Shown piece after piece: positions 8,345 through 61,758 of a stretch of DNA of 64,000 nt. The stretch is from Ancylobacter gelatini (GTDB lineage: Bacteria; Pseudomonadota; Alphaproteobacteria; Rhizobiales; Xanthobacteraceae). A program made the translations under genes and the position numbers. The stretch lies in assembly GCF_022601675.1 (NCBI RefSeq), contig NZ_JAKVIL010000011.1:62001-126000 (forward strand), in the 5' to 3' direction. A model generated the notes under the pieces. The model had not been told where the DNA came from. It ran no database searches and saw only the letters and a list, made by a program, of their open reading frames with translations. How positions within the stretch are numbered: position 1 is the first letter of the stretch; each line of letters starts with the position of its first letter.

Positions 8345-8383
8345 GGCAAACGGCGCGTCGCCCACAGGGCAGCGCCGTTTGCC
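8345..8383 (+). terminator. two-part hairpin terminator
   Basis: GGCAAACGGCG (8345-8355) pairs perfectly with 8373-8383, and an inner GCCC/GGGC stem extends the structure. It begins 17 bases after the preceding stop codon and is followed by TCTTCC. It separates the small gene from the tmRNA promoter. Confidence 0.65.
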
Positions 8384-8384
8384 T

Positions 8385-8414
8385 CTTCCAACCGGGCGCG
8401 GCTCTCCCTATATT
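8385..8414 (+). promoter_or_regulatory. candidate ssrA promoter
   Basis: CTTCCA (8385-8390) and TATATT (8409-8414) are separated by 18 bases. Transcription would start at about 8421, shortly before the predicted 5' end of the tmRNA acceptor piece. The -10 is good and the -35 is weak. Confidence 0.5.
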
Positions 8415-8435
8415 CATCGTTGCCGGCGCAAGTCG

Positions 8436-8740
8436 GCTATGGCGATAAACGGCTATCGGAATAAACCCTTCGGACCCGGGGGCAGTACCCGGCGCCTCCA
8501 CCCGAGCCCAGTTGAACAAGCTGGGCTCGGGCGGGGGCGAAACAGGATCGACGAGGGCGTAAAGGGTGGACTTTCGCTCGGCATGGTACCGCCGTCATCG
8601 GACCAAACATATAGTTGCCAACGACAACTATGCTCCGGTTGCTCAGGCCGCGTGAGCGGTTTGATCTCTGGGAAATAAGTCCTTGCGGGTAGCACTGTAA
8701 GGCGGGGTTCGGAGGCACCTGGCAACAGAAGCCTCCACTT
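8436..8740 (+). ncRNA. ssrA: tmRNA, circularly permuted two-piece form
   Basis: The gene has the alphaproteobacterial permuted order. The acceptor piece comes first: a T-arm CCGGG-GGCAGTA-CCCGG at 8476-8492 and 3' acceptor strand CGCCTCC at 8493-8499. An intervening hairpin follows (8501-8511 with 8521-8531) and would be removed. The coding piece then begins with 5' acceptor strand GGGGGCG (8533-8539), which pairs with CGCCTCC through one G-U pair, followed by the conserved GAAACAGGATCGACGAGGG. The tag frame at 8617-8655 encodes ANDNYAPVAQAA and a stop. A GGAGGC/GCCTCC hairpin at 8711-8736 ends the RNA. It rescues stalled ribosomes and tags products for ClpXP. Outer ends are approximate. Confidence 0.95.
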
Positions 8741-47442: not shown

Positions 47443-47967
47443 TCAGCGTTCAAAGGCGGTGCGCAGGCGACCGATCTGGCTCGCCACGGCATTGCCGGCT
47501 CGCTCGGGCGCCGCGTGCGGGGCGGCGCCGCGCGCCAGCCCCTCGTCGATGCGCTGGATCTGGCGTTGCAGGTCATAGCCGCGGCGCACCAGTTCGCGCA
47601 GGGTGGTGGGCAGCAGCTCTTCCTGCTCCTCGTCGCGGGGAGGGCCTTCTATGTCGATCTTCGCGCTCTCGCGCCGCGCGTCCTGCGGGCGCATGTCGCC
47701 CTCGTTGACCGCGCGCTGCAGCAGCAGCCAGGCGGCGAGCTGCATCAGCCGCGTGGACAGCCGCATGCTCTGCTGGGCATAGGCGGTGAGGGCGGGGCGC
47801 GACAGGTCTCGGCTTTCCACCCGCCCCGTGCCGTCGAGATAGGCGGCGGCTTCCTCGACCAGCGCCATACCTTCCGCGAACAGGTCGGCGAAAGCGCGCG
47901 AGGCCAGCCGGCGCTCGGCGATGTTCACCGTCGCGCCGGTCACGTCTGTGGTCCGGTCTGCTGCCAT
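47443..47967 (-). CDS. rcdA: DUF1465 protein, RcdA-like regulator of CtrA degradation
   Basis: The 174-residue, all-helical protein matches DUF1465, the family of Caulobacter RcdA: SRAFADLFAEGMALVEEAAAYLDG, LTAYAQQSMRLSTRLMQLAAWLLLQRAV and LPTTLRELVRRGYDLQRQIQRID, all in part. RcdA is a ClpXP adaptor that helps deliver the cell-cycle regulator CtrA and other substrates. Length agrees with the family. I chose the ATG at 47967. A perfect CtrA-type site lies 225 bases upstream, but a terminator hairpin stands between. The symbol is by homology only. Confidence 0.78.
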   Translation of the reverse strand: MAADRTTDVTGATVNIAERRLASRAFADLFAEGMALVEEAAAYLDGTGRVESRDLSRPALTAYAQQSMRLSTRLMQLAAWLLLQRAVNEGDMRPQDARRESAKIDIEGPPRDEEQEELLPTTLRELVRRGYDLQRQIQRIDEGLARGAAPHAAPERAGNAVASQIGRLRTAFER

Positions 47968-48076: not shown

Positions 48077-48168
48077 AAAAAGAAAGCCGCCCCCGAGGGC
48101 GGCCGGAAGTGAAGACAGGGCGGCGTCAAACAAAGTGGACAGGAGCCACTCGCGTCCAATATCGGACG
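48077..48168 (-). ncRNA. candidate small RNA between DUF1192 and the RcdA-like gene
   Basis: Minus-strand transcription from about 48168 would give a 90-base RNA with three stems: CGTCC/GGACG (48153-48168, loop of 6), AGTGG/CCACT (48134-48150) with loop CTCCTGT, and a 7-bp GC stem (48086-48103) followed by TTTCTTTTT, a standard Rho-independent terminator. The second loop contains CTCCT, complementary to a ribosome-binding site. A perfect CtrA-type box lies 23 bases upstream. This is a prediction; the terminator could simply end the DUF1192 transcript. Confidence 0.4.
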
Positions 48169-48190
48169 GACACAAGTAAAGGTCGGAAGC

Positions 48191-48207
48191 CTTAACCATG
48201 GGTTAAG
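48191..48207 (-). promoter_or_regulatory. perfect CtrA-type binding site
   Basis: CTTAACCATGGGTTAAG is a palindrome and an exact TTAA-N7-TTAA match (48192-48206), including the TTAACCAT form. It lies after the DUF1192 stop codon and upstream of the candidate small RNA and the RcdA-like gene, both on the minus strand. A TTTACTTG segment at 48173-48180 could be the -10 region. Confidence 0.6.
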
Positions 48208-48228
48208 CGATCCGCCTTTGGCCTGCTT

Positions 48229-48432
48229 TCAGCGCTTGAAGAAATTGTCCGCCGCCGCGCGCGAGGCCCGCTTGGAGATGAGCGCGAGCCGCAGCCGCTC
48301 CATTTCAGAGGCCAGCAGAGTCATGCGCTCCTCAAGCTCGATCTCCGACAGGGTGGAAAGATCGGCCCCGATCTCATGGGTGGCCGGCGCCCTTGCCGGC
48401 CGTACCGAAAACACGTCGTCGTCGATCGCCAT
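48229..48432 (-). CDS. DUF1192 family small protein
   Basis: The 67-residue product (MAIDDDVFSVRP..., LSTLSEIELEERMTLLASEMERLRL in part, ending ADNFFKR) matches DUF1192, a family of small helical alphaproteobacterial proteins of unknown function. In related genomes it sits beside the DUF1465 gene and the quinone oxidoreductase gene, as here. A terminator hairpin lies about 125 bases downstream. Confidence 0.87.
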   Translation of the reverse strand: MAIDDDVFSVRPARAPATHEIGADLSTLSEIELEERMTLLASEMERLRLALISKRASRAAADNFFKR

Positions 48433-49770: not shown

Positions 49771-49933
49771 GCAGGCGGGGCTGCGGGGTTCGTCAGGAGA
49801 ACATATTCCCCGGGGCCTTATCGATCTCAAAGGGAGCTGTCCCTGACCGGACCCGTGGGTCCGGACACACGGCGCCCACCTACGCTGTAGGTTCCCGGGA
49901 TCGATCACCAACGGCCATCGCGGCTCCGCACTT
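49771..49933 (+). ncRNA. ssrS: 6S RNA
   Basis: A region of about 160 bases directly upstream of fau has the alphaproteobacterial 6S pattern. The closing stem is GCGGGGCTG (49775-49783) with CGGCTCCGC (49921-49929), two G-U pairs. The conserved CCTTATCGATCTCAAAGGGA and GCTGTCCCTG segments follow, and the terminal hairpin CCGGACCC/GGGTCCGG is at 49847-49864. TAAATT at 49763-49768 is a likely -10 box. 6S RNA binds the housekeeping RNA polymerase holoenzyme as a promoter mimic, and linkage to fau is widely conserved. Ends are approximate. Confidence 0.82.
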
Positions 49934-57050: not shown

Positions 57051-57068
57051 CTAACCCCGCATTAACCA
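57051..57068 (+). promoter_or_regulatory. CtrA-like site upstream of ruvC
   Basis: CTAA-CCCCGCA-TTAACCAT matches TTAA-N7-TTAA with one mismatch in the first half and keeps the full TTAACCAT half. It lies about 90 bases upstream of the ruvC start. An almost identical sequence occurs upstream of tolQ. Confidence 0.45.
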
Positions 57069-61741: not shown

Positions 61742-61758
61742 CTAACCCGCCATTAACC
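61742..61758 (+). promoter_or_regulatory. CtrA-like site upstream of tolQ
   Basis: CTAA-CCCGCCA-TTAACC fits TTAA-N7-TTAA with one mismatch. It lies about 195 bases upstream of the tolQ start, in the gap after ybgC. It differs from the ruvC-upstream site at only two positions over 18 bases. Confidence 0.45.

Follow-up and report, generated by a model that had tools for sequence, protein, structure and literature searches.

Does the gap between the DUF1192 gene and the RcdA-like gene of Ancylobacter gelatini hold a small RNA gene of its own, controlled by CtrA, or the leader of the gene behind it? The unit lies on the minus strand of a 64 kb window (the whole stretch of DNA that was analysed), with the DUF1192 gene (48229-48432, minus strand; Pfam PF06698, E 4.5e-17) next upstream and the DUF1465/RcdA-like gene (47443-47967, minus strand; Pfam PF07323, E 2.1e-45; ATG assumed at 47967) next downstream. 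The gene rcdA encodes an adaptor for the degradation of CtrA. Judged from the sequence comparisons described below, the unit is probably a gene for a trans-acting small RNA of the BjrC1505 family whose promoter is controlled by CtrA.

Family, parts and fold of the predicted RNA

The stretch 48214-48077 matches the Rfam family BjrC1505 (RF02356) with 80.6 bits at a gathering score of 50 (E 1.4e-13 for the window); the alignment spans model positions 1-140 and is the single match in the genome. Since the score lies above the cut-off, the small RNA belongs to an already described family, and the match, together with the RNA's own terminator, bears out the earlier note, which had read a small RNA gene from the letters alone. 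The predicted transcript is about 92 nt long (48168-48077, minus strand) and agrees with the unit of about 90 bases that had been placed between the two genes. It begins with hairpin SL1 (48153-48168), followed by hairpin SL2 (48133-48151), both supported by fold and covariation. The fold of the transcript reproduces the two stem-loops that had been described, the second with CUCCU (48145-48141) in its loop, and leaves UCCU unpaired in SL2. A weak linker hairpin was predicted between SL2 and the terminator, and the linker motif (48116-48124) reads GCCGCCCUG in place of the family's GCCUCCCUG, as found by motif counts at 140 loci. The Rho-independent terminator (48077-48104; fold and covariation) consists of an 8-bp stem at 48104-48085 followed by TTTCTTTTT; such a hairpin had been claimed and is present and conserved.

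The 5' part of the RNA according to Rfam (48169-48214, minus strand) is here taken as promoter. It holds the CtrA-type box TTAACCCATGGTTAA (48192-48206, minus strand), which is an exact match to TTAA-N7-TTAA, as had been stated, and the sole exact match in the 64 kb window (48206-48192). The box ends 11 bases before a -10-like element, TTTACT (48175-48180, minus strand), whose function is presumed from the sequence, and 23 bases before the predicted start, so that it would lie at about -38 to -24. CtrA is encoded in the same genome, where one protein scored 418 bits on the model RespRegCtrARhodob (cut-off 350). With up to one mismatch, TTAA-N7-TTAA occurs at three sites in the window against 0.52 expected, and 1 of 100 shuffles reaches three. 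The two additional sites, at 57051-57065 and 61742-61756, both read CTAACCC...ATTAA. The window also contains a 6S RNA near the small RNA (RF00013, 92.1 bits; 49775-49930, plus strand), upstream of a 5-formyltetrahydrofolate cyclo-ligase gene, and an alphaproteobacterial tmRNA (RF01849, 304.2 bits; 8382-8739, plus strand).

The predicted 92-nt transcript of this copy folds moderately better than shuffled sequences (z -1.89; 9 of 200 shuffles as good), and those of four relatives fold clearly better than shuffles (z -3.58 to -6.34). When the whole 138-nt Rfam stretch was folded (z -2.85), the box formed a hairpin and a longer SL1 displaced SL2. Covariation was measured in alignment A1, which holds 73 divergent loci of 145 from the order; L068 and L085 were left out, the remainder was thinned to 76 at 82% similarity, and L058, L082 and L144 were then removed. 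RNAalifold predicted SL1, SL2 and the terminator on A1 and placed no pair upstream of SL1 in these 73 loci. For SL1, SL2, the linker hairpin and the terminator together, 95.2% of the alignment cells are paired (91.1% in shuffles) and 14 pairs have changed on both sides, compared with 4.6 in shuffles, none of which reached 14 in 500 trials; sliding the partner positions lowered the pairing to 37-54%. The stems that had been proposed thus do carry compensatory changes among the 73 sequences: four of the five pairs of SL1 (96.1% of cells paired) and four of the six of SL2 (94.5%), as do six of the eight of the terminator helix (96.1%). The linker hairpin has no pair with changes on both sides in the same loci.

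For the helices drawn by Rfam within model positions 1-43, 48.2% of the cells are paired versus 44.9% in shuffles (1 of 500 shuffles reaches this value), a comparison somewhat unfavourable to them because A1 was not fitted to the Rfam 5' helices. A block around TATTACT is moderately conserved in A1. The 5' end is placed at about 48168 on account of the -10-like element and of the point at which the covarying structure begins. The simplest reading is that the 5' third of the Rfam model would be the promoter and that the RNA would start just before SL1, here at about 48168; on this reading the Rfam model would best be trimmed to the transcript.

Relatives, the CtrA-type box and rcdA

RF02356 was matched in 130 of 149 genomes of the window's family (129 over the cut-off) and in 331 of 397 genomes of the order (288 of them above it), with two or three matches apiece in a few genomes. 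A 29-base core pattern was found in at least 119 stretches of named genomes, including Bradyrhizobium, Roseibium, Stappia, Bosea, Chelatococcus and Alsobacter. Homologues precede rcdA in Sinorhizobium meliloti Ak57 (in a record labelled plasmid), a Shinella and Methylobacterium bullatum, with 27.2 and 31.7 bits on RF02356 for the first two (both below the cut-off) and 50.5 bits for the third. On the transcript-only model R1, the E-values of the three are 2.2e-9, 2.4e-9 and 2e-10, respectively. The Methylobacterium bullatum copy (L267 2165-2268) has a shortened linker (GAUGCCUCUGUCGAC, no CUCCC) and a one-mismatch box upstream. Identity of the RNA with Smr45C/alphar45 of S. meliloti was considered and rejected, as no alphar45 match with E ≤ 0.5 was obtained at three loci, one of them from S. 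meliloti. In genus g41 a diverged RNA lies at the same place in four genomes that lack an Rfam match; CUCCCUG and a terminator are present in all four, and in the stretch examined the box is exact in two (L346, L348).

R1 was built from 62 of the 76 thinned loci. In 385 genomes of the class it matched in 102, five of them from the window's own order, and the weaker of these class matches may be other CCUCCC small RNAs. The model draws chiefly on sequence and contains no more than 8 base pairs. Outside the order, 66 rows were examined among the matches listed, mainly the best-scoring ones; 65 are distinct (L286 and L336 are the same copy), and several come from one genus. The SorX, SorY and suhB/mmgR models stayed below their cut-offs on some weak class matches. 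Seven copies (L311, L312, L313, L316, L318, L323 and L328) carry CGTCTCCCAGACGT or similar, followed by AAGCCTCCCTG, and six of the seven have no box at one mismatch; one of them, L313, scored 37.1 bits on SorX (cut-off 46.6). They are probably another CCUCCC small-RNA family caught by the loose model. Elsewhere in the class, G908 (L336, G908:C6) and G742 (L335/L287), two genomes from another family, have three R1 matches each, two of those in G908 in tandem at 200 bases apart, and an exact box precedes each of the three copies examined.

The box is conserved in relatives. Within the order, 138 of 145 loci have it with at most one mismatch, compared with 43 of 5155 equal-sized background windows taken elsewhere in the same loci; the 145 loci are not independent, many being from one family, and the figure of 138 is partly favoured by the way the loci were found, as RF02356 contains the box positions. 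When the best box close to each Rfam match is taken, 55 loci have no mismatch, 83 have one, 2 have two, 4 have three and 1 has four. Its end stands at a narrow distance from CUCCCUG (median 71 bases, quartiles 70-72, range 57-91, n=130), and the half-site bases are conserved to 85-99% in A1. Because RF02356 includes the box positions, the box test was repeated with the transcript-only R1. Outside the order, among the matches listed, a box with at most one mismatch lies in the 60 bases upstream in 43 of the 66 rows, that is in 42 of the 65 distinct matches, compared with 21 of 2483 background windows (0.85%); its distance is more variable there than within the order. Among these 65, 23 boxed copies have no rcdA in the fetched stretch, which in two of them (L287, L292) ends less than 200 bases downstream. 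At L274, L285, L296 and L310 the upstream quinone oxidoreductase gene is kept and another gene replaces rcdA, as seen by eye from the translations.

The box is kept in the order, in R1 matches without rcdA nearby and in two of the four diverged g41 copies, and on these grounds it goes with the RNA. Since relatives have kept box, stems and linker alike, the element as a whole also stands well above chance. It might still be that RNA and box are real and that the main regulator is another factor, with CtrA binding weak or lineage-restricted. A match to TTAA-N7-TTAA is no proof of binding, and many relatives (e.g. L002) have TTTA as one half-site. Such an arrangement is nevertheless given little probability here in view of the conservation of the half-site bases in A1, the recurrence of the box in distant matches and the presence of CtrA in this genome.

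The neighbourhood of rcdA bears on two further explanations. rcdA follows downstream on the same strand at 138 of the 145 loci of the order, and DUF1192 precedes on the same strand at 111; among the seven loci without downstream rcdA, the stretch of L075 ends 524 bases downstream and rcdA of L094 is about 8 kb off. The same-strand order at the 138 loci suits a leader of rcdA, in which a transcript started by CtrA would mostly be terminated at the hairpin and regulated read-through would set the level of RcdA by attenuation. In some clades the RNA motif could pair in cis with the ribosome-binding site of rcdA, and CtrA motifs or sites have been reported upstream of rcdA in S. meliloti and Caulobacter (PMC3616915, PMC4287350). 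Against the leader stand the strong conservation of the terminator, the occurrence of RNA and box without rcdA in the 23 matches, and a conserved block that the gap before rcdA has for itself (CTGGAC or CTAGAC, visible by eye in 18 of the 22 loci aligned from the family). The earlier note had left a leader or attenuator of the RcdA-like gene as its second option; on the evidence of the terminator and the 23 matches it is unlikely, though some read-through may occur. A GACAGGC-type motif was found in only 6 of the 138 gaps before rcdA.

The second explanation assigns the box to rcdA, or regards it as a leftover of the rcdA promoter, with a constitutive small RNA. PMC4287350 puts rcdA of Caulobacter under CtrA control, PMC4433202 has CtrA binding the region in S. 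meliloti, and a second box with at most one mismatch lies nearer to rcdA, between terminator and rcdA, at 23 of the 138 loci (5 exact). This second box is rarer than the box of the RNA and commoner than background (about 1% per 50 start positions), so that in some lineages rcdA may be served by a CtrA site of its own. The spacing of the first box to the RNA is narrow within the order, whereas the start of rcdA lies roughly 106 to 462 bases past the end of the RNA; with boxes also found in the 23 matches without rcdA, a box belonging to rcdA is highly improbable as an account of the one at 48192-48206.

The preferred reading, a CtrA-controlled promoter for the small RNA itself, can be set beside published data. 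In S. meliloti, according to PMC4433202, ChIP-Seq found the rcdA promoter region bound by CtrA and rcdA expression unaltered on CtrA depletion, while RcdA is essential and lowers CtrA. Binding without an effect on rcdA would fit the promoter of another transcript. The S. meliloti RNA locus has an exact box with the RNA, and in both S. meliloti and the Shinella another exact box precedes rcdA, which makes the ChIP peak in S. meliloti ambiguous; the second S. meliloti box (L265 2342-2356, exact TTAA-N7-TTAA) is downstream of the small-RNA terminator. In three agrobacteria several start sites precede rcdA, with a possible CtrA site there (PMC10469942). Caulobacter has several cell-cycle promoters for rcdA, and six non-coding RNAs among the start sites with CtrA motifs (PMC4287350). 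The results of these three papers would fit a separate small-RNA promoter, and none of them names BjrC1505 in the text available.

Loss of the RNA together with loss of rcdA was also considered. RcdA was matched in every one of the 129 genomes of the window's family whose RNA score exceeds the cut-off. An RNA match is lacking in 19 genomes, some of them incomplete (66-84% complete); among these 19, RcdA gave no match in 14 and a weak one in 5. Genomes of the family that lack an Rfam match belong mostly to genera g2, g7, g41, g14 and g19. In some genomes of families f18, f45 and f50 the RNA is present and RcdA was undetected (partly with the first 8 candidates per genome scored), and some genomes of the order have RcdA and no RF02356 match. 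The notion that RNA loss tracks rcdA loss was rejected on the diverged g41 copies, the incomplete genomes and the RNA-only and RcdA-only genomes; at most, RNA and RcdA diverged jointly in one family.

Pairing motifs and candidate targets

Motifs were counted at 140 of the 145 loci. CUCCU occurs in the SL2 region at 106 of the 140 and the linker GCCUCCCUG at 131. The anti-Shine-Dalgarno loop with CUCCU that had been pointed out is present, yet it is one of two CUCC motifs, and the linker is the more conserved of them. The window copy has kept CUCCU; GCCGCCCUG was seen in no other copy among the 140. Six genus mates were sampled, and five of them carry GCAUCCCUG together with altered loops.

In the proposed mechanism, CtrA would bind the box over the -35 region and activate transcription of the RNA, probably at a late stage of the cell cycle. 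The RNA would then pair through its CUCC motifs, in the SL2 loop and the linker, with ribosome-binding sites and lower the translation of several mRNAs, repression being suggested by the likeness in design to the alphaR8 RNAs. As pairing with rcdA is not visible in the window's own genome and the linker motif has changed there, this copy would pair by its SL2 loop.

The neighbouring rcdA was examined as a target by seeking an exact complementary run of at least 7 bases between the RNA and a 36-nt start region; start codons were picked with some weight on a good Shine-Dalgarno sequence, alike for all four genes, and the rcdA start could be placed at 132 of the 140 loci. The rcdA start region is complementary to the RNA at 66 of the 132 loci compared with 9.3% of shuffles. 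The control genes are overall near or below shuffles, with 11 of 107 for DUF1192, 3 of 107 for rpmE and 8 of 99 for the quinone oxidoreductase. The complementarity is found at 50 of 77 loci in the window's family, mostly through one shared GAGGCGU motif, and at 5 of 12 in family f41. In the remaining families it is found at 11 of 43, against a share of 10.0% for shuffles and 17.8% for mismatched RNA-gene pairs; rcdA did no better there than the quinone oxidoreductase control (7 of 30); outside the order, rcdA gave 3 of 28 versus 10.6% of shuffles. The window's own RNA-rcdA pair has only 4 complementary bases. The part of the RNA that pairs varies by clade: many relatives of the window's family use ACGCCUC, and L045-L048 use CUCCUGUCCA, a run of 10 bases. 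By duplex energy of the RNA with the four neighbouring start regions, rcdA was inseparable from shuffled sequence (median -30.3 vs -29.1).

From these counts it is plausible that rcdA is a target in two families. As the only target it is improbable, since the RNA also occurs at loci where no rcdA was found. For parts of the Hyphomicrobiales the data hint that the neighbouring rcdA mRNA might be one target, through which CtrA would protect itself from degradation. The full circuit, with CtrA switching the RNA on, the RNA blocking rcdA translation, less CtrA being delivered to ClpXP and CtrA so stabilising itself, is given a low probability, partly on account of the quinone oxidoreductase control.

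Comparison with known small RNAs

BjrC1505 was reportedly first described by Madhugiri et al. in 2012 in Bradyrhizobium japonicum and verified by gel blot. The RNA family itself is thus already known; what is new is a CtrA-type box tied, by sequence comparison, to BjrC1505 across the Hyphomicrobiales and other orders, with tight linkage to rcdA. CtrA is absent from the one-line Rfam description of BjrC1505. A link between the two was not found in the literature searched, mostly made up of papers open without subscription, where BjrC1505 is named only in a list and RF02356 was not found; the papers on DUF1465/DUF1192 are by their titles unrelated to small RNAs. With such a link, the orphan BjrC1505 would rank among the CtrA-linked small RNAs of widest conservation, and the regulon to which division, motility and symbiosis are subject would gain a post-transcriptional arm. 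The S. meliloti puzzle, in which CtrA is bound at the promoter of rcdA and leaves its expression unchanged, could be read in the same light.

The window element matches BjrC1505 (RF02356) in sequence, structure and full model length, with a score above the curated cut-off. It differs in that the Rfam model counts the box-bearing promoter as RNA and in that the linker of this copy is changed to GCCGCCCUG. In design it resembles the alphaR8 group (suhB/MmgR/SisA-D, RF00519), which likewise combines a hairpin, a single-stranded CCUCCC anti-Shine-Dalgarno stretch and then a terminator. SisA of Caulobacter, an anti-Shine-Dalgarno RNA, is described in PMC12559287 as repressing mRNAs via UUUCCUCCCU by pairing upstream of the start codon. 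The window RNA scored 16.3 bits on RF00519 (E 0.91), below the cut-off of 41. According to the same paper, most alphaR8 genes are neighbours of an N-formylglutamate amidohydrolase gene, and no promoter motif is common to the four alphaR8 copies of Caulobacter, whereas BjrC1505 lies by rcdA and has the conserved box. EcpR1 of S. meliloti (SmelC291) is also a conserved rhizobial small RNA with an effect on the cell cycle; it differs by a sigma70 promoter that is active in stationary phase, pairing through a UCCGCCGCAUCU loop, and another locus, by pleD/divK (PMC4414408). CcnA of Caulobacter is, like the RNA proposed here, a non-coding RNA that is putatively activated by CtrA, and it acts on ctrA and gcrA; it is 182 nt long and lies at the replication origin, a position other than that of BjrC1505.
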